Source of the DNA: Deltaproteobacteria bacterium
GTDB lineage: Bacteria; Myxococcota_A; UBA9160; UBA4427
Reading direction: 5' to 3'
NCBI GenBank assembly: GCA_019310385.1
Contig: JAFDEK010000017.1
Coordinates: forward strand, 1 to 64,000
Length of the DNA stretch: 64,000 bases
Shown: piece by piece, positions 5,930-42,441 of the stretch
How the letters are laid out: the number at the start of each line of letters is the position of its first letter
Position numbering within the stretch: the stretch's first letter is position 1
Translations under genes and position numbers: made by a program
Notes under the pieces: generated by a model
Told to the model about the DNA's origin: nothing
The model's database searches: none
The model's input: the letters and a program-made list of their open reading frames with translations, nothing else

Positions 5930-6724
5930 ATGATCCGCTTCGGCTTTTCGCTGTTCTTCTGGACCTTCATCACGGCGAGCTCACTTGCGCTCTTCCCGGT
6001 TGCGGTCCTGCTGTGGGCGATGACCGGGCCCTTCGACCGCCGCAAGGTGCTGCTGCACCGCTTCACCTGCTTCTGGGCCTCGCTCTACTCCTGGTTCAAT
6101 CCCGCATGGCCCGTCACGGTGACGGGGCGCGAAAAGATCCCCCGCGATCAGGCCTGCGTGATGGTCGCGAACCATCTCTCCCTGGTCGACATCCTGATCC
6201 TCTTCCGGCTCCAGACCCACTTCAAGTGGGTATCGAAGTCGGAGAACTTCAGAGTCCCCTTCATCGGCTGGAACATGTCCCTCAACGACTACATCCAGCT
6301 GAAGCGCGGAGACAAGGCCAGCGTTCTCCGGATGATGCGCCACTGCGAGCAAACCCTCGCCGCGGGCAGCTCGGTCATGATGTTCCCGGAAGGGACCCGC
6401 TCCCCGACCGGCCGCATGCGCTCCTTCAAGACGGGGGCCTTCGAGATGGCGCTGAAGGCGCGCACCCCCATCCTGCCCATCGTGATCCACGGCACCGCGG
6501 ACGCGCTCCCCAAGCGCGGCTTCGTGCTGCAGGGACGCCACCCCATTCGCATCGAGGTGCTCGACCTCATCCCCTACGAGAGCTTCGCGGACAAGAGCGT
6601 CGAGGAGCTCACCCGGGACGTACGCAACGTAATCGCCGAGCACGTGGTCACGGACGGGGGCGACGCCGTGGCGCCCCGCTCCAAGCGGGCCGCACGAGCG
6701 GCGCGTGCGGCGGCCGAAGCATGA
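5930..6724 (+). CDS. plsC: 1-acyl-sn-glycerol-3-phosphate acyltransferase family protein
   Basis: A 264-aa membrane-associated acyltransferase that would acylate lysophosphatidic acid or a related acceptor in phospholipid synthesis. An N-terminal hydrophobic segment (about residues 5-30) is followed by the catalytic NHLSLVDI (the NHx4D motif) and the glycerophosphate-binding FPEGTRSPTGRMRSF. A third block reads LPIVIHGT. The C-terminus is Arg/Ala-rich. The stop overlaps the ATG of an SDR remnant by 4 bp. No clear SD precedes the ATG; a TAACAT hexamer lies 6 nt upstream. plsC is a family-level name; paralogs are common. Confidence 0.85.
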   Translation: MIRFGFSLFFWTFITASSLALFPVAVLLWAMTGPFDRRKVLLHRFTCFWASLYSWFNPAWPVTVTGREKIPRDQACVMVANHLSLVDILILFRLQTHFKWVSKSENFRVPFIGWNMSLNDYIQLKRGDKASVLRMMRHCEQTLAAGSSVMMFPEGTRSPTGRMRSFKTGAFEMALKARTPILPIVIHGTADALPKRGFVLQGRHPIRIEVLDLIPYESFADKSVEELTRDVRNVIAEHVVTDGGDAVAPRSKRAARAARAAAEA

Positions 6725-6843
6725 TCCTCGACCGCTTCAAGCTCACGGACCGGGTCGCCCTGGTGACGGGAAGCGGCAAGATCCTCCAGGTGGATGGCGG
6801 CACCGAGGCCCCCGCCATCACAGTGCCGACGCCGCCGCTCTGA
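6721..6843 (+). pseudogene. Short-chain dehydrogenase remnant (N-terminus joined to C-terminus)
   Basis: A 40-codon frame whose first half (residues 1-20, ending VALVTGSGK) is a typical SDR N-terminus with the start of the TGxxxGxG loop. Its second half (from ILQVDGGTEAP) is a typical SDR C-terminus, where the DGG element precedes the tail. About 200 central residues, including the catalytic Ser-Tyr-Lys, are missing, and the joint is in frame. The ATG overlaps the plsC stop in ATGA, so the intact ancestor was probably translationally coupled to plsC. No enzymatic function is possible for the fragment alone. Confidence 0.7.
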
Positions 6844-8627: not shown

Positions 8628-10321
8628 TCAAGCCCTCGAATCGGACCGGCAGAGCTCGCGACGCAGGAGCTTGCCCGCCGCGTTGCGCGGCAGGCAGTCC
8701 ACTCGATGGAAGCGCAGGGGAACCTTGTAGGCCGCGAGGCGCGCCCGGCAGTGCTCGCGCAGCGCCTCCGCGTCGAGCTCCGCGCCCTCGTGCAACACGA
8801 GCCAGGCAACGGGACGCGCGCCGAAGTCCGCATCCGCCACTCCTGCAACCGCGGCCTCGACGATCGCGTCGTGATCGAGGAGCGCGGCCTCCACTTCGGC
8901 GGGATAGACGTTCTCGCCTCCCGAAACGATGAGATCGTCGCGGCGGTCGAGAACCCGCAGGCGCCCGCCCGCGTCCAGCTCGCCCATGTCGCCGGTGTGG
9001 AGCCAACCCTCCCGAAGCGCCGAGGCGCTGGCGTCGGGACGTTTCCAATAGCCCGACATCACCATGGGGCCGCGCACGCAGATTTCGCCGACCGCATCGG
9101 GCGGCTGCGCGGCGCCTTTCTCGTCGACGATGCGAACTCCGAGGCCAGGCAGGGGATGGAGGCCTGTCGAATCCGCAGCGGCGCGGCCGGGCGGGCGGGT
9201 CGCCACCTGGGAGCAGGCCTCCGTGAGGCCATAGGTGGGCGCCACGGGATAGCCGAGCTCTCGAGCGCGCTCGAGGAGCCCCGGCGACGCGGCCGCGCCA
9301 CCGAGCAGAATGCAGCGGAGCTGCGGGGGCGCAGCCCGCTCGCCGCGTGCGACGAGGAGCCGCTCCAGCATCGCGGGCACCAGAGAGACGATGCTGATCT
9401 GCTCTTCGTCGATCGCGTGGGCAACGGCCTCGGCGTCGAAGCGTTCGTGGATGACCGCGGTCGAGCCCGCCAGGACGCTGCGCAGCAGGATCGACAGCCC
9501 CCCCACGTGGAAGAGGGGCATGCAGAGCAGCCAACGGTCGTCGGCACCGTTTCCGAGCAGGGCCGCGGAGGCGGCCGCGCTGCTGAGGAAATTGCGATGG
9601 CTGAGCAGCGCCCCTTTCGCAAGACCCGTCGTGCCCGAGGTGTAGAGAAGCGCCAGCGGCGCAGTCAGATCGAGGGGCGCTTGCTGGGCGTCTGGGGAGA
9701 AGGGAAGAGCCGGCAGCTCACGCGCCAGCTCCGAAGGCGCGCGCCCATCCGGCAGCTCCAGGGCTTCGAACTGCGGCAGCGCCTCGCAGCTTCGCAGCGC
9801 CACCTCGGACGCATCGTGGATCAGCAGGCGAGCGCCGCTGTCCCGCAGCGGATGAACCAGCTCGGGCGCGGTGAGCCGCAGATTCAAGGGCAGCAGCACG
9901 GCGCCGACCAGGGGCATGGCATGGAGCAGCTCCAGCTGCGCGAGCCCGCTGCCCAGGTGAAGCGCGACCACGTCTCCGCGGGACACCCCGCGCTCCTTCA
10001 GCAGCGCGGCGGCCGCCCGAGCGCGCGCTCCTTCAGCAGCGCGGCGGCCGCCCGAGCGCCCTGGGCGAGCTCACCGTAACGCAGCTTCCGGTCCCCCAGC
10101 TCCGCCGCCACACGATCCGGGGAGAGACCTGCGCGCACCTCGATCCAGGGCCGCCGCCATTGCGCCTCGTCATAGCCTTCGACATCGATTGTGCGATCTC
10201 CCACGCGATGACCCTCGCCCTTTCCCTCGCCCTTCGACTCGCCCTTCGACTCGTCGCGTGACTCGTCTCTTTCCTCAACTACTTCCTCATCTCTTTCCTC
10301 AAGAACAGGCCCGCCCTTCAC
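8628..10321 (-). pseudogene. menE: menE, o-succinylbenzoate-CoA ligase, frameshifted by a 35-bp tandem duplication
   Basis: MenE ligates o-succinylbenzoate to CoA via an acyl-adenylate. Motifs LLYTSGTTGLAKGALLSH (P-loop), YGLTEACSQVAT, GWLHTGDMG and NAAGKLLRREL identify an ANL-family enzyme, and the men operon context identifies MenE. The gene begins at a GTG (10321) overlapping the menC stop in GTGA. After 107 codons the frame ends at 9998 because 35 bp are duplicated; deleting one copy restores a continuous 552-aa reading frame. The distal part could restart at GTG 9986, preceded by AAGGAG. The N-terminal 40 residues are a Glu/Lys/Gly/Asp/Ser low-complexity run not typical of MenE. Either a real pseudogene, a slippage-switchable allele, or an assembly error. 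Confidence 0.85.
9989..10059. repeat. 35-bp direct tandem duplication inside menE
   Basis: Two 36-bp identical blocks, 9989-10024 and 10024-10059, are offset by 35 bp and share one base. The offset is not a multiple of three, so the second copy shifts the menE frame. In the correct frame the block encodes RAAAALLKER, which appears once in each frame on either side. Confidence 0.95.
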
Positions 10322-11496
10322 CCTCGAATCTCCCGAGTGGGTCCGCAGGCGAGAGCCGCGAGTGCACGCGGATCGGGCGCGACGCCGAGCCCCGGCCCGG
10401 GCGGCAGCGCGAGCGAGCCCGCGCGCACGCGGGGAAGCCGGGCGAGGTCCTGCTCGAAGAGGCCCCCCGTCGCGAGACCGCTGGCACGGGGCTCGACCTC
10501 GTCGGGTCGAATGGACGCCGCGAAGTGCAGCGCGGCCGCGACCGCGATGGCGCCGTCGAGAAGAGAGGTCACCACGATCCCCAGGCCCGCGTCGAGCGCC
10601 GCCGCGGCAACCCGGGCGGCGGGAGCCAGGCCACCGGCGGCGCTCGGCTTGATGACCACGACATCCGCGGCCCGGCGGGCCACGACCTCGAGGGCCGCCG
10701 CCTCGACCACCGCCGACTCGTCGGCCGCCAGGGCGATACCCGATTGCGCTCGCAGCCGCGCGAGGGCGTCCAGATCGCTGGCCGCAACGGGCTGCTCCAG
10801 CAGCTCGATATCGAAGGACGAGAGCCGATCGAGTGCTTCGCGCGCGAGGGTCTCGCCCCACCCACCGTTGGCGTCGAGGCGCAGACGGGGCTCCGCCCCT
10901 ATTGCGCGGCGCAGGGCCGCGACCCGCGCTTCGTCGTCAGCCAGACTTCGCGCACCAACCTTGAGCTTCAAGGTGTGGTGCCCTTCCGCGAGGGCGGCGC
11001 GGCCGCTGGCCGCCACCTCCCCGGGCGTGTTGCCCGACACCAGGGCATTGACCGGCAGGACCGAAGGCAGCGCTCCCCCGGACCCTTTGCGAAGCAACCG
11101 GGCCAGGGGCAGGCCCCTCGCCTTTGCGACCAGATCGTGGAGGGCACAGTCCAAGGCCGCTCGCGCGACGGGGGCGTCGGGCGCCGATGCCCCCGCGTCT
11201 CTCAGGTGCCCTTCGATAGGACCGAGCTCCTTTCCGAGCTCCTTCCCGACCTCCTCTCCGACCTCCTTTCCGACGAGAGATGCGGCGAGGCTCGAGAGCG
11301 CTTCGCGGCAGCGCGACGCGGACTCGAGGCCGAAGCCCGCGATGGGAGTCGCCTCGCCGTAGCCCTCGATGCCCGAGTCGCCGACCAGGGTGAGCAAGGC
11401 GCCCTCGCGCAGGTCGACCTCACCGTGGGAAGTCGCCAGGGCACGCACGAGCGCAAGGCGAAAGGGTGTGATGCGTGCGGCGCGGATCCTCACCAC
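10318..11496 (-). CDS. menC: o-succinylbenzoate synthase (enolase superfamily)
   Basis: MenC dehydrates SHCHC to o-succinylbenzoate. Enolase-superfamily residues are in order: LKLKVG (catalytic Lys), LRLDANGGW (metal Asp), ELLEQPV (metal Glu), LAADESAV (metal Asp) and VVIKPSAAGG (second catalytic Lys). The start is ambiguous. GTG at 11496 or 11493 lies just behind GGGAGAGG and begins VVRIRAARITPFRL, the family N-terminus; a GTG at 11565 would overlap menA by 13 bp. An insertion of four near-identical 12-bp units (11222-11269) adds GEEVGKELGKELG to the capping domain. The stop overlaps the menE GTG. Confidence 0.9.
   Translation of the reverse strand: MVRIRAARITPFRLALVRALATSHGEVDLREGALLTLVGDSGIEGYGEATPIAGFGLESASRCREALSSLAASLVGKEVGEEVGKELGKELGPIEGHLRDAGASAPDAPVARAALDCALHDLVAKARGLPLARLLRKGSGGALPSVLPVNALVSGNTPGEVAASGRAALAEGHHTLKLKVGARSLADDEARVAALRRAIGAEPRLRLDANGGWGETLAREALDRLSSFDIELLEQPVAASDLDALARLRAQSGIALAADESAVVEAAALEVVARRAADVVVIKPSAAGGLAPAARVAAAALDAGLGIVVTSLLDGAIAVAAALHFAASIRPDEVEPRASGLATGGLFEQDLARLPRVRAGSLALPPGPGLGVAPDPRALAALACGPTREIRG
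11222..11269. repeat. 12-bp x 4 in-frame tandem repeat in menC
   Basis: Units CCGAGCTCCTTT, CCGAGCTCCTTC, CCGACCTCCTCT and CCGACCTCCTTT follow one another directly. On the coding strand they encode tandem (K/E)E(V/L)G tetrapeptides. Confidence 0.92.
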
Positions 11497-11552: not shown

Positions 11553-12455
11553 TCAGAGCCACCACCCCAGGGCCAGGAGCAGCGAGTAGAGCAGCGAGAG
11601 CTGCGCGGTCCCCGCCAACGCCTCGTTGAGGGTGGGACCGTCACTGTGCCGGAACACAGTGTCGATCAGCTTCCAGGCCTTGGGGAGGCTGAGCAGCGGC
11701 AGCATGACCCAGAGAGAACGCCCGAAGGAGAGCGAGAATACCGGCAGCACGACATAGGCGAAGGCCACGAGAGCCAGGTACTCCAAACGCGCGCCCCGGG
11801 GTCCCAGCCGCACCGCCAGGGTGTGCTTGCCCGCCTTGCGGTCCGTGTCGATGTCACGAACGTTGTTCACCACCAGGATCGCGGTCGCGAGCGCGCCCAC
11901 GGGCAGCGACGCCGCGAAGGCCGCGGCGCTGAGCTCGAGGGTCTGCACGTAGCTCGTCCCCATCACCGCCACGAGACCGAAGAAGAAGAAGACCGCGGGG
12001 TCGCCCAGGCCCCGGTAGCCGAAGGGCCAGGGCCCGCCCGTGTACGCGATGGCGGCCGCAATGGCGAGGAGACCCACGCAGACGATGGGCCACCCGCCCA
12101 CCGCCGCGAGGTAGAGGCCTACCCCCACCGCGGCCCCGAAGACCACCAGCATGCCGCGGCGCATCTCGCCGGGGCTGAGCAGGCCCAGCTGGGCCGCCCG
12201 AGGCGGGCCAATACGCTCTTCGGTGTCGGCTCCCTTTTCGTGGTCGAAGAGGTCGTTGGCGATGTTGGAGCCGATCTGCAGCAGCAGTGCCCCCGCAAGG
12301 GCTGCGAGGGCGGGCAACACCCGTGCACCGCCCTGGGACGCCGCGACCGCGGTACCCACTGCCACGGGCGCCGCCGCCACGGGGAGGGTGCGCGGGCGGA
12401 TGGCGAGCAGCCAGATCTGCCGCTTGGAAAGGCTGGTGAAATCGGGCGCACTCAT
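11553..12455 (-). CDS. menA: 1,4-dihydroxy-2-naphthoate polyprenyltransferase
   Basis: A 300-aa integral membrane UbiA-superfamily prenyltransferase that attaches the polyprenyl tail to 1,4-dihydroxy-2-naphthoate. The first Asp-rich, Mg-diphosphate-binding motif is NIANDLFDHEKGAD; the second is NNVRDIDTDRKAGK. WLLAIRPRTLP at the N-terminus is characteristic of MenA. Eight or nine hydrophobic helices are visible. The start ATG at 12455 overlaps the menH stop (ATGA). The same frame is open upstream through menH into menD, but that stretch antisenses no MenA homology and is only an open frame. Confidence 0.92.
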   Translation of the reverse strand: MSAPDFTSLSKRQIWLLAIRPRTLPVAAAPVAVGTAVAASQGGARVLPALAALAGALLLQIGSNIANDLFDHEKGADTEERIGPPRAAQLGLLSPGEMRRGMLVVFGAAVGVGLYLAAVGGWPIVCVGLLAIAAAIAYTGGPWPFGYRGLGDPAVFFFFGLVAVMGTSYVQTLELSAAAFAASLPVGALATAILVVNNVRDIDTDRKAGKHTLAVRLGPRGARLEYLALVAFAYVVLPVFSLSFGRSLWVMLPLLSLPKAWKLIDTVFRHSDGPTLNEALAGTAQLSLLYSLLLALGWWL

Positions 12456-13420
12456 GAGCTCTCTTCCTCGTCTCTCTTGCTCGATCCATCCCGAGCCCTG
12501 CGCTCTGCATCGACATCGTTCTCTGCATCGACATCGTTCTCGGCATCGACATCGTCGAAGAAAGCGCGAGCCACGCGCCCGAAGGCCGTCGGGTTCTCGA
12601 GGTGGGCGGCGTGGCCCGCCGCCGGGATGACTTCCACCCGCCCTCGCGGCAGGGCCCCGGCGAGCTCCCCCGCCAGGGCGCGAAACTTCGCGTCCTCTTC
12701 CCCTGTAACGAGACAAACAGGCGCGGAGATGCGCCGCAAATCGCCGTGGAGGGGAGGCATGGCGCCCGTCCCCATGCCGCGCAACGAGAGCGCGAGGCCC
12801 TCGGGCCGGCACTCGAGACGCTGGGCACGGGCCTTCGCGAGCTGCGCCTCGCCCAGCCTCCGTTGACTCGCGAAGAGGGGAAGCGCCATCCAATAGTCGA
12901 CGAAGGCCTCGAGCCCCTGGTCGAGGATACGCGCCGCCAGGGCCTCGTCGCTGCGCCTGCGCTCGCCGCGCGCCTGCGGGTCGGCGATCCCCGCAGTCGC
13001 ACCGACCCCCAGCGCGGAGCGGAAGGCCTCGGGATGGGCGGCGCAGAGCGAGAGGGCAACCCGTCCGCCCATGGAGTAGCCGAGCAGATGGGGACGCTCG
13101 AGGCCGAGGGCGTCGACGAGCTCGCGCAGCTGCGCGACGCAACGCTCCATGGTGTAGTGCACAGGGTCTTCGGGCACGTCGCTGGCGCCGTGGCCGACGA
13201 GGTCGACGCAGACGCTGCCGCGCTCGCCACGGAAGTGCTCTGCCACTCCGGCCATGCTCTCCAGCGAGCCCGTAAAACCGTGAAGGACGAGGACCGGTGC
13301 GGCCTCCGCTCCGACCGCCGGCGCGACGCGCACGTTGAGCTCGACGCCCTGCACTGCGAGCCGGCCGTCGACCGCCCCGGCCACTGTGCCCGCGAGTCGG
13401 CTCAATCCACCTGCCGTCAC
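12452..13420 (-). CDS. menH: 2-succinyl-6-hydroxy-2,4-cyclohexadiene-1-carboxylate synthase (MenH-type alpha/beta hydrolase)
   Basis: An alpha/beta-hydrolase fold enzyme that removes pyruvate from SEPHCHC to give SHCHC. LVLHGFTGS forms the oxyanion loop, LLGYSMGGRVAL holds the nucleophile Ser, CLVTGEEDAKF the acidic residue and IPAAGHAAHLENP the His. The GTG start at 13420 would overlap a stop in the +1 frame of menD (GTGA), like other junctions of this operon; an in-frame ATG at 13477 lies inside menD. The C-terminal 30 residues are low complexity (repeated DVDAEN) from an 18-bp repeat and extend beyond the usual family end. Confidence 0.87.
   Translation of the reverse strand: MTAGGLSRLAGTVAGAVDGRLAVQGVELNVRVAPAVGAEAAPVLVLHGFTGSLESMAGVAEHFRGERGSVCVDLVGHGASDVPEDPVHYTMERCVAQLRELVDALGLERPHLLGYSMGGRVALSLCAAHPEAFRSALGVGATAGIADPQARGERRRSDEALAARILDQGLEAFVDYWMALPLFASQRRLGEAQLAKARAQRLECRPEGLALSLRGMGTGAMPPLHGDLRRISAPVCLVTGEEDAKFRALAGELAGALPRGRVEVIPAAGHAAHLENPTAFGRVARAFFDDVDAENDVDAENDVDAERRARDGSSKRDEEESS
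12507..12560. repeat. 18-bp x 3 in-frame tandem repeat at the 3' end of menH
   Basis: Three copies of GCATCGACATCGTTCTCT, the third diverged in its last 6 bases. They encode the repeated hexapeptide DVDAEN in the MenH C-terminal tail. Confidence 0.93.
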
Positions 13421-15140
13421 GCGCCTTCGCCCCCCGCAACACCGACCCCGGCCCCGACTTCTCGAGCGCACTCGCATAGTCCTCCCACGAGCTCACCCTG
13501 CAGTACGCAGCGCCCGCGAGCTCGGCTGCGGGCCGCAGATCGACGCCGTGGGGCGTAGTAAAGAGCTCCTCGAAGTGGACCGACTCGCCGTGCTGCGCGA
13601 TGGGGAGGAAGGAGAAGATCCCGCCGCCGTCGTTGTTCAGGACCACGATCGTCCCGCGCAGCCCGTGGCGGCGGGCCGCCAGCAGGCCGCCGAGGTCGTG
13701 CAGCAAGGCGAGGTCACCGGTGAGGAGCACAGCGGGCCCGACACCGGCCGCCGCGGCGCCCAATGCGCTCGACACCATGCCGTCGATTCCGTTTGCGCCG
13801 CGGTTGGAGAGGACCCGCGGGCCGAGCTCGGCAAGGGGCATGACGGCGTCGAGGTCGCGCACAGGCATGCTGTTGGAGACGTAGAGGATCGCGTCGTCGG
13901 GAAGCCGTGCGCAGAGCTCACGGACAGCGCGCGGCTCGAAGAGCCTGCTCTCATCTCCCAGGCCCCGGTCGACCGCCCGCGCCGCCGCCCCCTCCGCCGC
14001 CTCGAAGTCCGCGAGCCAGGCGCTCTCCCGTGACCCACCGAGGCCTTCCGCCGCACGGCGGCACAAGAGCGCTGGATCCACCGACCAGTGCTGGGTCGCC
14101 AGGTGGCTGGGGTCGTTCCACGCCCCGGCTGGATCCACCAGCAGCAGGTGCTCCGGTGGCCGGGCCTCCAGCCAGAGGCGAAAGGCCTTGCTCACCGGAG
14201 AGCCGCCGATGCGAAGCACCACATCAGGCGCGTGGGCCCGGGCAAAGGCCGCGTCCCGCAGGATCAGGTCTCCCGTGGCGAGGATGGGCGCGCCGGCCAC
14301 GTGGGCTCCGGCGCGCAGCTGGGAGCAGGGATCGGCAAGCACCGGCCAGCCCGCTGCTCGCGCAAGGGCGGCGACGGATTCGCACAGCTCGACGTCCGCG
14401 TCCATGGGACCGCAGGCGATGAGGCCGCGAGGCCTGCCGCGAGCCAGCTCGACCAGCTCGGCCACCTGGGCGTCCTGGGGCGGCACCCGCGATCGACCGA
14501 TTTCCGTGTAGGCGCGACCCTCCGCGCGCTGCAGCTCGCTCGCGAGAGCCACGGATTCGGCCGCCTCCCCGGCGAGCTCCCAGGCGGGATCGAGGGGCTC
14601 GCGCAGCGGCCAGTTGAGATGCACCGGTCCCGGCGGAGACCCGGTCGCCTCGGCGACCGCACGACAGGCGAGCATTCCCCCATGACGCAGCAGCTCCTCA
14701 CCGCTGCCATCGGGTGTGGGAAGCTCCGCGAACCAGCGCAGGTGGGAGCCGAAGATCCGCGACTGATCGATGGTCTGCCCGGCCCCCCACTCCCGCAGCT
14801 CGGCGGGGCGGTCGGCGCTCAGCACGATGAGCGGCACGCCGGCGTAGTGGGCCTCGACGACCGCGGGCAGGAAGTTCGCGACCGCGGTGCCCGAGGTGCA
14901 GACGAGGGCCACCGGCTCACGACTCGCCTTGGCGAGCCCCAGGGCGAAGAAGGCCCCCGAGCGCTCGTCGACGTGGACCCAGGTACGCAGCGCCTCGCAG
15001 CGCGCCGCGCACACCGCGAGGGGCGCCGAACGCGAGCCGGGAGACACGCACACGTGTCGCACCCCGGAGCGCGCGAGCTCGTCGAAGAAGCGCGCCGCGA
15101 GTGCGTAGCTGGCGCCGGGCTTGGAGTCGCTGGCGGACAT
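13417..15140 (-). CDS. menD: 2-succinyl-5-enolpyruvyl-6-hydroxy-3-cyclohexene-1-carboxylate synthase with abnormal 3' end
   Basis: A ThDP-dependent enzyme that joins isochorismate and the 2-oxoglutarate-derived succinyl unit. The N-terminal pyrimidine-binding domain shows VSPGSRSAPL and SGTAVANFLPAVVEA. The C-terminal ThDP/Mg site shows LLTGDLALLHDLGGL and VVLNNDGGGIFSFL. Homology runs to about residue 560 (SSWEDYASALEKSG), then stops abruptly. The usual terminal 25-30 residues are missing and the frame stays open, without a stop, for 1195 codons as far as the end of menA. A stop in the next frame at 13417-13419 overlaps the menH GTG, so a frameshifting indel near 13430-13470 is likely. The end given assumes that stop. 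Confidence 0.85.
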
Positions 15141-15146
15141 ACGCCG

Positions 15147-16784
15147 CTAGATCTCCGTCAGCGGCGCGAGCAGCGCGCGCAGCTTGAGCCGGGTCTCGCG
15201 CAGCTCGTCTTCGGGCTGCGAAGCCTCGACGATCCCGGCGCCGGCGAAGAGCCGCGCCTCGCCGCCCCGGATGTGCGCGGAACGCAGCGCGACGCGAAAG
15301 CTCCCGTCACCGCGGGCCGTGACGAAGCCGACCGGGCCCGCATACCAACCCCGGTCGAGCCCCTCCCAGCGATCGATCCACGCCTGCCCCGCGGCGCGGG
15401 GAGCCCCGCCCACCGCGGGCGTCGGGTGCAGGCGTGCAACCAGATCGAGGACGCCGGGACGGTCTTCGAGGGAGGCGGCCAAACGCCCGGCCAGGGGTGT
15501 CTCCAGGTGCTGTATGCCCTCGAGGCGCAGCAGGACCGGGGTCTCCGGCCCCTCGAGCTCGCCGCACAGGGGCTGCAGCGCCTGCTCGATGGCACGCCGC
15601 ACGATGGCGTGCTCCTCCTGGTCCTTCTTGCGCTCGCGCAGCTCACGCCCGATGCGCTCGTCCTCCTCGGGGCTGCGGCCCCGGGGCGCCGTCCCCGCCA
15701 GTGCGACGGTCTCGACGCGGTCTCCGGCGAGCTCCACCAGGCGCTCGGGCGAAGCCGACACGAAGTAGTGACCGCCCCTGCGCAGCGCCAGGATCGCGCA
15801 GGAGGGATAGGTTCGGCGCAGGGTGTCGAGGAAGTGGGGCAGATCGAAGTCGCCGTCGTGGGAAACGTGCAGCGAGCGGGCCAGGACGACCTTCTCGAGC
15901 TCGCCGCGGGCGATGGCCTCTCGGGCGGCCTGCACCTGGGCGCAGTAGCGCGCGTGGCTGCGATCGGATCGAACCCGATATTCGGGCCCGGACTCGCCGG
16001 CACCGGCATGGCCCAGAGCCGGGGGAAAGCCGCGCCAACAGGCCTGCTTGTCCGGCGCGCCCATCGTCGAGGCCGCCCCCGAGGCGGGCGTGGCCTCTCC
16101 GTTGACATCCCTGAGATTGACATCCCTGAGATCGACACTCTCGAGATTGACACTCTTGAGCGTCTCCTCGAAGCGCGCCCGGAGGCGGGTGGCCTCGCGC
16201 CCGGGATCGTCGCCCTTGGCGATGCGGCCGCTGGCGCTAAGCCAGGCATCGTTCCCCTGCCGAAGGTAGACGCGTTCGGGCAGCACGAGCCGGCCGGCCC
16301 CGAAGGCCTCCCACTCGCCACTCCCGGCGCCCGGCTCCCCGCTGAAGCTGAATCCCCCGACGAGCAGGGGCCCGGTCCAGCCCTGCACCTGCCCCGCGCC
16401 CTCTTCCGAGCCCTTCTCCGCACTCGCATCCGCGCCCTTCTTCTCTCCGACCGCCGCCCCGAGGTCCACCAGTTGGTGATCGGCAAAGAGCTCCCGGGAA
16501 AGCCGGGCCGCCTCCTCGACGCGATGGGCTCCGCGGCTCTCGATAGCGTGAAGCCGGCCGAGCCCCGCGATGGCGAGCCCGCGGGCGGGCTCCTCCCAGT
16601 AGAAGGCGTCTTCCGCCTGGCAGTCCGCGAAGAGCGCCAGGGCGTCACACGGCGCGACCGGGGCGCGCAGGGAGAGCCACTGGGGACGCCCCGTTTGCGC
16701 CGCTCGCTGCGCCCCGCTGTCGAAGAGCCCATCCACGGCCTCGCGCCCTCGAGCGATGATCTTGGCCACCCGAGCCTCCCTCAT
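15147..16784 (-). CDS. menF: Isochorismate synthase
   Basis: A 545-aa chorismate-binding enzyme converting chorismate to isochorismate, the first committed menaquinone step. The C-terminal catalytic half shows GELEKVVLARS, FVSASPERLVEL, VALAGTAPRG, ARLHPTPAVGG, YAGPVGFVTARGDGSF and AGAGIVEASQPEDE, matching the MenF/EntC/DHBA synthase Mg and chorismate sites. It is longer than typical (about 430-450 aa), partly because of a central low-complexity stretch with a 15-bp repeat (16102-16161) giving VNLESVDLRDVNLRD. The start overlaps the menG stop in ATGA; menD begins 6 bp after its stop. Confidence 0.92.
   Translation of the reverse strand: MREARVAKIIARGREAVDGLFDSGAQRAAQTGRPQWLSLRAPVAPCDALALFADCQAEDAFYWEEPARGLAIAGLGRLHAIESRGAHRVEEAARLSRELFADHQLVDLGAAVGEKKGADASAEKGSEEGAGQVQGWTGPLLVGGFSFSGEPGAGSGEWEAFGAGRLVLPERVYLRQGNDAWLSASGRIAKGDDPGREATRLRARFEETLKSVNLESVDLRDVNLRDVNGEATPASGAASTMGAPDKQACWRGFPPALGHAGAGESGPEYRVRSDRSHARYCAQVQAAREAIARGELEKVVLARSLHVSHDGDFDLPHFLDTLRRTYPSCAILALRRGGHYFVSASPERLVELAGDRVETVALAGTAPRGRSPEEDERIGRELRERKKDQEEHAIVRRAIEQALQPLCGELEGPETPVLLRLEGIQHLETPLAGRLAASLEDRPGVLDLVARLHPTPAVGGAPRAAGQAWIDRWEGLDRGWYAGPVGFVTARGDGSFRVALRSAHIRGGEARLFAGAGIVEASQPEDELRETRLKLRALLAPLTEI
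16102..16161. repeat. 15-bp x 4 in-frame tandem repeat in menF
   Basis: Units TTGACATCCCTGAGA (twice, identical), TCGACACTCTCGAGA and TTGACACTCTTGAGC lie end to end. They encode a five-residue pattern V-N/D-L-x-S/D in MenF, in a linker outside the catalytic motifs. Confidence 0.93.
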
Positions 16785-17473
16785 GTCTTCACCGCCGTCA
16801 GGATCTGGGCCGCGCCGAGCATCAGCCCCTTCTTCTCGATGGAGCCGAAGCCCGCCTTGGCGAGCATGGCGTGCAGCTCTTCCGCCGTCGGCAGATAGGC
16901 GGTGGACTCCGGCAAATAGCGATAGGCCTGGCGGTCGGAGAGGAGGCCTCCGAGCAGGGGCACCAGACGATCGAAGTAGAGGGAGTGGGCGCCGCGCACG
17001 ATTCCCGATCGCGGCCGGTCGACCTCGATGAGCGCGATCCGGCCACCCCTGTCGAGCACCCGCGCCAGCTCGGCGAAGATCTCGGGAAGCGAGACGAAGT
17101 TGCGCAGGGCGAAGCCGCAGGTCACCACGCTCGCGCAGCCATCGGCCAGGGGCAGCGCCGCGCCGTCGGCCCGCACGAAGGCGGCGTCGATGCCGCGCGC
17201 CCGGGCGCCCCGCAGCATCTCCCCGGCGAAGTCGATTCCCATCACCCGCGCACCCCGGGCGGCGGCCTGCTCGCTCAGGTCTCCGGTGCCGCAGGCCAGG
17301 TCGATCACCCGATCGCCGGGCCCCACCCCCACCCGGCCCAGTGCGTCGCGGCGCCAGCGCTGGTCGAGGCCGAGGGTGATGAGGCGGTTCATGAGGTCGT
17401 AGCGCGGCGCGATCTTGTCGAACATCTCGCGAACGGCCCGGTGCTTCTCCTGGCCCGTGGGCAGGCGACTCAT
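16781..17473 (-). CDS. menG: Demethylmenaquinone methyltransferase (MenG/UbiE)
   Basis: A 230-aa class I SAM-dependent C-methyltransferase performing the last menaquinone step. Family signatures: VREMFDKIAPRYDLMN near the N-terminus, VIDLACGTGDLS (SAM motif I), GFALRNFVSLPEIFAEL and LPTAEELHAMLAKAGF. The ATG at 17473 is chosen because it overlaps the merR stop (ATGA), the arrangement used throughout this operon; an in-frame ATG lies 6 bp earlier at 17479. Nothing in the operon implies ubiquinone synthesis, so the demethylmenaquinone role is favoured. Confidence 0.93.
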   Translation of the reverse strand: MSRLPTGQEKHRAVREMFDKIAPRYDLMNRLITLGLDQRWRRDALGRVGVGPGDRVIDLACGTGDLSEQAAARGARVMGIDFAGEMLRGARARGIDAAFVRADGAALPLADGCASVVTCGFALRNFVSLPEIFAELARVLDRGGRIALIEVDRPRSGIVRGAHSLYFDRLVPLLGGLLSDRQAYRYLPESTAYLPTAEELHAMLAKAGFGSIEKKGLMLGAAQILTAVKT

Positions 17474-18288
17474 CGCCATTGGATCTCCAGTCGCGAGGAT
17501 TCCACCGACGCGATGGCGCTCTCGAGCGCGGCGGCCTCGCCCTTGGCCCGCATGCGCTCGATGGCCCGGTTCACCAGGGTGCGTTGAAAATGCAGTGCGA
17601 CCAGCCGCGTCACCTGGGGCAGCAGCAGCCGGAAGGCCTCGCTGATCCCCTGGGCGTCGTCGCCCCGGGCACCCGCCTTGCCCATGCCCTTGCGAACGTC
17701 CTTGCGAACATAGTCGTCGAAGAGGTCGATCGCGGCCTCGCTGGTCTCGGCCGCGCTGCGGGCATGGGTGACGGCGAGGTTCAGCAGCTCGTCGAGGGGC
17801 AGCCCGGCTTCGAGGATTGCCAGGCCGGCCCGGGCCATCTCGAGGTCGGCGGCGGAGTAGCGCTCGTCACCCGCGACCACGACCGGCTCGAGCAGGCCCG
17901 CCGATCGCGCCGCGCCCAGGATGGCTTCGGGAACACCCGACTCGGCGGCAAGCTCCGGGAGACTCAGGCTGCGCTCTCCCACGCTCTCTCGGGCCAGCGC
18001 GGCGAGCAGCGCAGCGTCGGCACCGGCGTCCGCGGCCTGCAGCGGCGCGGCGCCAGCACCCGAATCTCCATCTTCCGCGGCCCCCACGACCCGGCGGATC
18101 TGAGCCAGGCTGAAGCCCTGCTGGAGTAGCGCCCGCACCTGCCGCAGACGATCCAGATGAGCCTCACCGTAGAGCGCGACCCGCCCCTGCCGGCGTGGCG
18201 GCGGGATGAGCCCGCGCCCCTGATAGAAGCGCACCGTGTCCACCGTGACCCCGCCCGCTCGGGCGAGGGCCTCGACGCGATATTCCAT
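17470..18288 (-). CDS. MerR-family regulator leading the men operon
   Basis: A 272-aa protein with an N-terminal MerR winged helix-turn-helix (residues 1-70: YRVEALARAGGVTVDTVRFY, then LIPPPRR and LRQVRALLQQGFSLAQIRRVV). A long helical C-terminus without metal-binding Cys could be an effector or dimerisation domain. It contains a second short helix-turn-helix-like stretch around residues 105-160. It is first in the men operon and its stop overlaps menG. Its promoter contains a perfect 12-bp palindrome in the spacer, so autoregulation and control of menaquinone genes are plausible. The ligand is unknown. A 12-bp repeat (17687-17710) gives VRKDVRKG. Confidence 0.8.
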   Translation of the reverse strand: MEYRVEALARAGGVTVDTVRFYQGRGLIPPPRRQGRVALYGEAHLDRLRQVRALLQQGFSLAQIRRVVGAAEDGDSGAGAAPLQAADAGADAALLAALARESVGERSLSLPELAAESGVPEAILGAARSAGLLEPVVVAGDERYSAADLEMARAGLAILEAGLPLDELLNLAVTHARSAAETSEAAIDLFDDYVRKDVRKGMGKAGARGDDAQGISEAFRLLLPQVTRLVALHFQRTLVNRAIERMRAKGEAAALESAIASVESSRLEIQWR

Positions 18289-40289: not shown

Positions 40290-41894
40290 TCAGCGCCGGA
40301 TTCGCCCGAGCGCCGCCGGCGTCGCCGCCAGCAGGAGCGCCGCGAGCAGGCGCGCAGCCAGGCCGCTGGCCGGCAGGTGGACGAGATCGCCCGACTCGCG
40401 ATTGTCCGTGGGCGAGGCACAGGTGGGATCCGCAGGGTAATCGATGAGCCCGTTCCCGTCGTTGTCGACCCCGTCGCTGCACGCGGGCGCCTCGAAGAGA
40501 TCGTACCAGTCCACGCACTGGAGGTCCTGGCCGTAGTCGGTCGCGCCGTCACCGTCGTTGTCGATGTTGTCCCAGCACGCGGGCCGCTCGGATTGGTCAT
40601 CCGGAGTCGCGCAGCCCGTTTCGTCGGGATAGTCGGTCAGTCCGTCGGCGTCGTTGTCGATTCCGTCGGCGCAGTCCCGCTTCTCTCGCGTGCCCGAAGG
40701 GCCCGCGCAGGCCCCGTCTTCGAGATGATCCGTCAGGCCGTCCCCATCGTTGTCGATGCCGTCCCAGCACTCGACCGCTTCGAGAGAGTCGAAGCTCCCG
40801 GCGCAGCCGAGATCATCGGGGTAGTCGGTGAGACCGTCTCCGTTGTTGTCGATTCCATCCGCACAGCCGGTCGCCTCGTGGACGCTGAAAGGCCCGTAAC
40901 AGCTCGGGTCGTCGGGGTGGTCGGTGGCGCCATCGCCGTCGTTGTCCAGGCCGTCGCTGCACTCGCTGCTCTCCGCGTTGTCGAGCACGCCCCAGCAGCT
41001 CGTGTCCGCGGGGTGATCGGTGAGGCCGTCGCCGTCGTTGTCCAGGCCGTCACTGCACTCGGGGTCGGGACGGCCGGCCAGCGCGGCGGTCAGCAGGTGG
41101 GGAGAGCTCGCCACGAGCCCGTCGACACCCATGTCGATCACGCTCGCAAAATCGGGGGACTGCACAATGAAGGTGTAGAGCGAGAGCCCGTAGCTGTGGA
41201 CCAGGTCGACGTACTCGGGGGTCAGCTCCTGGTAGCGGACGATGAGACCCACGCAGCAGCTCTCCGCTCGCGCCAGGATGTTCTCTTCGGGATACCAGGT
41301 GTAGCCGTCGTAGTACACCGGCGCGTCGGGAAGCAGCGCGTGGTATTGCTCCGCCAGGCCCACGCCCCCACGCACCCAGGTCTCGACGCTGGCCTGGGGG
41401 ATGCCGAGATCGAGCACCTGCTGGGCCACGGTGGCGACGTAGTCGCGGTGCTTGATCTCCAGGAAGAACTTCGCGTCGGGCAACACGGCGGCGTAGGCCT
41501 CCTCGAGGGTGGGAACCCGGGTTCCCGCCCACTCGGGGCCGAAGTAGATGCCCGCATCGAGCTGCTTGATCTGCGCAAGGGTGAAGCCCGTGACCAGACC
41601 GGTGCCGTCGGTGGTGCGATCCACGGTCCAGTCGTGGTGCAGGATGGGAACCCCGTCCGCGGTCAAGAAGACATCCGTCTCGATCAAGTCGATGCCGTAG
41701 GAGACAGCCGAGAGGAAGGTGGGGATGGTGTTCTCCGGCGCCAACGTGTAGCCGCCGCGATGGGCGATCGAGAGGGGGTGCCCGGCCTGGGTCACAAGGG
41801 GGACGACGAGCAGGGCCAGGGCCGGAAGCGCAGCGAGCACCGCGCAGGTCCCGTGCCTCCAGGCCCCCCTCCCCCGCCTTCCGCCGCCGATCAC
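40290..41894 (-). CDS. Exported glycerophosphodiester phosphodiesterase with seven Asp-rich repeats and a VPLPA-like sorting signal
   Basis: A 534-aa protein. A signal peptide (residues about 10-38) precedes a GDPD domain: IAHRGGYTLAPENTIPTFLS, IDLIETDVFLTADGVPILHH and FFLEIKHRDY carry the catalytic His pair and metal Glu/Asp ligands. From about residue 275 come seven 30-residue repeats of the form C-x-DG-x-DNDGDG-x-x-D-x8-C, thrombospondin type 3-like calcium loops with paired Cys. The C-terminus is VHLPASGLAARLLAALLLAA followed by Arg residues. This resembles exosortase-processed VPLPA-CTERM signals. The GTG start has GGAG 8 nt upstream and overlaps the stop of the truncated upstream copy (GTGA). 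Confidence 0.85.
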   Translation of the reverse strand: MIGGGRRGRGAWRHGTCAVLAALPALALLVVPLVTQAGHPLSIAHRGGYTLAPENTIPTFLSAVSYGIDLIETDVFLTADGVPILHHDWTVDRTTDGTGLVTGFTLAQIKQLDAGIYFGPEWAGTRVPTLEEAYAAVLPDAKFFLEIKHRDYVATVAQQVLDLGIPQASVETWVRGGVGLAEQYHALLPDAPVYYDGYTWYPEENILARAESCCVGLIVRYQELTPEYVDLVHSYGLSLYTFIVQSPDFASVIDMGVDGLVASSPHLLTAALAGRPDPECSDGLDNDGDGLTDHPADTSCWGVLDNAESSECSDGLDNDGDGATDHPDDPSCYGPFSVHEATGCADGIDNNGDGLTDYPDDLGCAGSFDSLEAVECWDGIDNDGDGLTDHLEDGACAGPSGTREKRDCADGIDNDADGLTDYPDETGCATPDDQSERPACWDNIDNDGDGATDYGQDLQCVDWYDLFEAPACSDGVDNDGNGLIDYPADPTCASPTDNRESGDLVHLPASGLAARLLAALLLAATPAALGRIRR

Positions 41895-42441
41895 CTGCCT
41901 GCTCCCGCGAGGCGCCGACGCGCGGGCCCGCACAGCACGCTCGCCGCGAGGAGCAGCGCTACGAGCACGCGCGCCGACATGCCGCTGGCCGGCAGGTGGA
42001 CGAGATCGCCCGACTCGTGATTGTCCAGGGGTGACGCGCAGGTGGGATCCGCGGGATGATCGATGAGCCCGTTCCCGTCGTCGGGATCCGCGTGCCGGCC
42101 CACTCCGGGCCGAAGTAGATGCCGACATCGAGCAGCTTCAGCTCTGCCAGGGTCTTCTGGGTGACCAGCGCCATGTCGCCGGTAATGCGCCAGAGACTGA
42201 GGTCGTGGTGGATCACCGGCACTCCGTCCAGGGACAGCCAGACGTCGGTCTCGATCACGTCGATGCCGTTGGCGATGGCCGAGAGAAAGGTGGGAATGGT
42301 GTTCTCGGGCGCCAACGCGTAGCCGCCCCGATGACCGATGTTGATCGGGTGCGTGGCCGCGGCCATGGGGCGCGCGAAGAGCACAGCGCAGATCAAGAAC
42401 GGTCCCAGCGCTGAGATCAGAGCTTTACCGCGCAAGACCAC
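41891..42441 (-). pseudogene. Deletion derivative of a second glycerophosphodiesterase gene
   Basis: The 5' part encodes a signal peptide and the first third of a GDPD domain (NIGHRGGYALAPENTIPTFL to YFGPEWAGTRIP). It then jumps, out of frame, to the last DNDGDG repeat and VHLPASGMSARVLVALLLAA, read in the next frame to the stop at 41891. About 350 residues present in the neighbouring intact copy are missing. The two genes are tandem duplicates with the same 3' end, the stop of this one overlapping the GTG of the next. The N-terminus is uncertain (GTG 42441 or an ATG at 42513). Confidence 0.8.

Follow-up and report, generated by a model that had tools for sequence, protein, structure and literature searches.

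The menE gene considered here carries an exact 35-bp tandem duplication, and the question it raises is whether menaquinone synthesis has recently been lost, is switched on and off by slippage, or has been misrepresented in the assembly, three readings that an earlier note on this DNA had left side by side. The window (the whole stretch of DNA analysed, 64,000 nucleotides) belongs to a 64.4-kb contig, one of the 215 contigs that make up a 4.93-Mb MAG estimated to be 88% complete and 5% contaminated.

The men operon and the menE duplication

The locus resembles a classical (o-succinylbenzoate) men operon in that each gene matches its men counterpart and the gene order is that of most family relatives, but it departs from one in that the assembled frames of menE and menD are both broken. 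On the minus strand lie ubiE/menG, encoding a methyltransferase (16781..17479), menF, encoding an isochorismate synthase with a chorismate_bind domain (15147..16769), menD (13455..15140), menH, encoding an alpha/beta hydrolase (12452..13420), menA, of the UbiA prenyltransferase family (11553..12455), menC, of the enolase superfamily (10318..11448), and menE. The order MerR-like regulator, ubiE, menF, menD, menH, menA, menC, menE is common to most of the 20 relatives examined, some of which gave no ubiE match within the stretch fetched.

Translation of menE is predicted to begin at a GTG (10321) that overlaps the menC stop codon as GTGA. Within this conserved gene two exact copies of a 35-bp unit, CGCGCTCCTTCAGCAGCGCGGCGGCCGCCCGAGCG, stand head to tail on the minus strand (9989..10023 and 10024..10058); base 10059 matches too, giving a 36-bp match. 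The chance expectation for so long an exact match at a short offset is about 1e-12 in the window. As 35 is not divisible by three, the reading frame is lost, and the 5' fragment (9998..10321, minus strand) ends after 107 codons at a TGA (10000-9998). The distal frame has no stop from about 10070 on, and its first start codon is the GTG at 9986, from which 452 aa can be read (8628..9986, minus strand). Removal of one repeat copy yields a continuous reading of 552 aa. The duplication, the frame shift and the single-copy reading are thus as the earlier note had described them, and so is the AAGGAG (9993..9998, minus strand) that may serve as a ribosome-binding site six bases ahead of GTG 9986. 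Programmed ribosomal frameshifting was considered and set aside: by eye, no recognizable slippery motif was seen in the stretch from about 10070 to 9998, in which both frames are open. The region 9400-10600 had no megablast match among plasmids, and no Rfam family matched the window at gathering scores.

The distal fragment is recognizably a MenE protein. It contains Pfam AMP-binding and AMP-binding_C domains, its frame scores 380 bits against a cut-off of 330 for NCBIfam TIGR01923, and its best PDB matches are the 2-succinylbenzoate--CoA ligases 5buq and 5x8f. A search of genome contigs with MenE returned nine loci, mostly from Actinomycetes and none of them close. It is conceivable that the two fragments are both made and reassemble into a split but working enzyme, with translation reinitiating at GTG 9986 to give the second; the stop codon of the 5' fragment does overlap the AAGGAG, and both AMP-binding domains are kept in the distal fragment. 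We consider this very improbable. Both the AAGGAG (plain Lys-Glu coding sequence) and the GTG are read as normal codons when the gene is uninterrupted, in no relative is the gene split here, and about 50 residues at the N-terminus of the fold are missing from the 452-aa remainder. This remainder enters the AMP-binding profile only at position 44 (profile 44-384) and aligns with 5buq only from residue 54, and with the frame broken a complete N-terminal domain is not encoded in one frame. The initial 45 or so residues of the 5' fragment form a low-complexity acidic/lysine stretch that is missing from the relatives.

Derived state and age of the damage

Comparison with relatives, which the earlier note had proposed, shows the duplication to be derived. 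The single-copy reading of menE aligns without gaps at the duplication site with all 20 family relatives; each of these has a single copy, none retains the repeat, and neither repeat nor length variation was seen at the site among them. Matches to menE over the cut-off were found in 54 of the 98 genomes searched, and in the other 53 the match lies in one open frame and starts at profile position 1-5; the match in the window begins at profile position 9, within the duplication.

The damage also appears to be recent. In per-gene trees the root-to-tip distance of the menE in the window is the shortest in the family (rank 21 of 21) and that of its menD is on the short side (rank 19 of 20), and these short distances speak against long decay or relaxed selection. 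Judged from the trees, they show that the damage to both genes is probably of recent date. The suggestion of a recent loss has therefore been strengthened in respect of the broken frame, the derived state and the recency, while the loss of MenE activity itself is a likely consequence predicted from the missing part of the fold.

A second lesion in menD

The view that the duplication sits in an otherwise coherent men operon did not hold, for menD is also frame-broken, at about 13455-13417. The gene aligns with its relatives over residues 1-562 and matches NCBIfam TIGR00173 and the MenD chains in the PDB, and the frame is lost just before menH (13417..13454, minus strand). From the last conserved residues (EKS) it is only 35 nt to the expected stop codon, a TGA that is out of frame and overlaps the GTG of menH (GTGA, 13420-13417). 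In the relatives compared, MenD continues for about 39-45 residues or more past the EKS-like end (e.g. LAHPGVSIIEVPIDREANLEHFRSLV), and the solved MenD chains extend about 38-43 residues beyond the end of the match; the C-terminal segment that follows the EKS-like end in the nine relatives compared (e.g. VSIIEVPIDREANLEHFR) is absent from the window. As assembled, the menD frame runs on into menA, for 1195 codons in all, and a codon HMM independently called a frameshift at 13397.

This second lesion bears directly on whether the repeat is a selected, reversible slippage switch, in which one- and two-copy cells would coexist and interconvert, turning menaquinone synthesis on and off. Because menD is broken as well, deletion of one menE copy would not restore the pathway as assembled, and a change in copy number at menE could not toggle it alone. 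Slippage could plausibly act on an exact 35-bp tandem repeat, and reversible phase variation caused by duplications within pneumococcal capsule genes has been reported (Waite 2001 and 2003, as cited in PMC4022640 and PMC4243769). The site shows no repeat or length variation in relatives, however, and comparable duplications occur all over the genome (see below) with no sign of targeting. Known switches mostly act on surface structures and not on a sole quinone route. The switch proposed in the earlier note is accordingly weakened, by the menD lesion and by the untargeted background; we regard a selected switch as unsupported and highly improbable, since menD would have to be intact and the population mixed for it to work.

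Other quinone routes in the genome

Searches of the MAG (88% complete) found neither the futalosine gene MqnA nor COQ7, and for UbiA and for a second copy of menD or menE nothing scored above the cut-off. The earlier note had taken another intact menE in the genome as grounds for abandoning its reading, and this did not arise in the part assembled. Absence from an 88%-complete MAG is not proof of absence of other quinone genes; a true loss, if real, would leave the organism with no quinone route unless it scavenges.

The same finding argues against a null allele. It favours instead an error, a minor variant strain or genes that went unseen in the 12% of the genome that is missing, and it is because two lesions fall in what is apparently the only quinone route that error or strain variation is a serious rival. 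The main rival is an assembly or consensus error, with a one-copy menE and an intact menD in the real population and a contig that misrepresents both sites. That one operon should carry two lesions when no other route was found is biologically awkward, the menE site is intact in all of the relatives examined (20/20), and the MAG is fragmented, incomplete and partly contaminated, all of which favour such an error. We hold it to be possible but on balance doubtful, in view of the genome-wide comparisons given in the next section.

Alternatively, the whole menaquinone pathway may be in the course of being lost under relaxed selection, with quinones or their precursors supplied by neighbours. This is a variant of the null-allele reading that treats the loss as tolerated and in the course of spreading instead of as a passing accident. 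The presence of lesions in both menD and menE is consistent with it, and loss of quinone synthesis with cross-feeding, and incomplete men pathways, have been reported from gut bacteria (PMC5738691). We think it unlikely, since menF, menH, menA, menC, ubiE and menB (the last intact on a different contig) all have open frames, the men genes show no sign of faster evolution, and at a background of about 23/Mb an 8-kb stretch would be expected to hold about 0.2 frameshift candidates, so that finding one there is no great surprise.

Tandem duplications across the genome

Exact tandem duplications with a period of 10 or more were counted in 854 kb of the same genome (the window with L076-L095 and L119-L138) and in 14 family relatives. 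The genome itself has 95, or 111/Mb, against 28 in 1.0 Mb (28/Mb) in the relatives, a fourfold excess (p 2e-12). The duplications are evenly spread across the sampled contigs, the variance being about equal to the mean. The excess is not unique, as a comparable density was seen in one relative (G015), albeit from a small sample.

The periods of these duplications depend strongly on where they lie. Inside genes 35 of 37 are divisible by three, as opposed to 19 of 58 outside (Fisher 6e-10), the latter being the neutral third; the 41 duplications with other periods are nearly all outside genes. The genes were called with a custom codon HMM that may label badly broken genes as non-coding, so that the in-gene count of out-of-frame duplications is a lower bound. 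This contrast shows that most of the duplications are real and that frame-breakers have been purged. Random duplications made by an assembler would ignore the reading frame, and such errors must therefore be rare here. Nor does the assembly appear to be generally error-ridden, because frameshift candidates are not raised genome-wide (23/Mb as against 26/Mb in relatives). Both results count against an assembly error at menE.

When one copy of each duplication was dropped in the codon HMM, menE alone gave a clear gain (6.4), and it is the one clear exception, an out-of-frame duplication in a conserved gene. A second, smaller gain (4.8) came from an 11-bp repeat (L127:349) within a frame that is integrase-like but degenerate. 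This frame (L127:1-500) is tyrosine-recombinase-like, resembling integron integrases, and has a further frameshift besides its 11-bp out-of-frame duplication.

A proposed recent null allele and its parallels

The account that we favour, with a probability of roughly one half, is that a mutation of a known class has recently produced a non-functional menE allele that owes nothing to selection; it may be a strain variant that not all of the population carries. In a lineage that seems to gather short tandem duplications throughout its genome, replication slippage would probably have produced a head-to-tail second copy of a 35-bp stretch of menE, leaving a 107-codon stub of MenE and a remainder of 452 aa. 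With the menD lesion, the pathway as assembled would be inoperative twice over. If the allele is present in real cells, it might in principle revert through the loss of a copy, like any tandem duplication; it bears no mark of an evolved switch.

Spontaneous tandem duplications have been described in capsule genes of pneumococcal serotypes 3, 8 and 37 (Waite et al., 2001, 2003, as cited in PMC4022640 and PMC4243769). The likeness to menE is that a head-to-tail duplication within a reading frame inactivates one enzyme gene and that loss of a copy would restore it, and the difference is that reversion and phenotype were reported from culture, while the menE allele is known from one assembled sequence. 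Moreover, unlike the capsule genes, menE is respiratory and a second gene of its pathway is also broken. Phase-variable contingency loci with short repeats offer another parallel, since the menE reading frame depends on how many copies of a tandem repeat are present, but menE has two copies of a long unit and not many of a short one, and its repeat occurs in no relative and is known in one assembled copy number. Our literature search found no paper on men genes with tandem duplications or on menE pseudogenes.

As a mutation the menE duplication is ordinary, and its value is methodological: the contrast between in-gene and extragenic periods helps to separate true frame-breaking alleles from assembly slips. 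Should both copy numbers be present in the reads together with an intact menD, menE would offer a rare example of repeat copy number controlling a respiratory pathway. It is tempting to speculate further that, in a lineage with an unusually high rate of short tandem duplication, the duplications might turn core metabolic genes reversibly on and off, here those of the quinone route, with quinone-making and quinone-dependent cells living side by side, although we would give this idea very little credence.

Other repeats and gene remnants

The men genes of the window also contain short in-frame tandem repeats, of 15 bp in menF (16102-16152), 18 bp in menH (12503-12555), 12 bp in menC (11222-11274) and 12 bp at the start of menE (10214-10253); the men loci of relatives have far fewer. 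Two further remnants were noted elsewhere in the window. At 6721-6843 (plus strand) a 40-codon frame resembles, by eye, the two ends of a short-chain dehydrogenase (VTGSG and KILQVDGG) joined across a large internal deletion; it has no Pfam match. At 41959-42384 (minus strand) lies a truncated and frameshifted paralogue of the glycerophosphodiester phosphodiesterase-like gene at 40290-41840, the truncation apparently having arisen through a large internal deletion.
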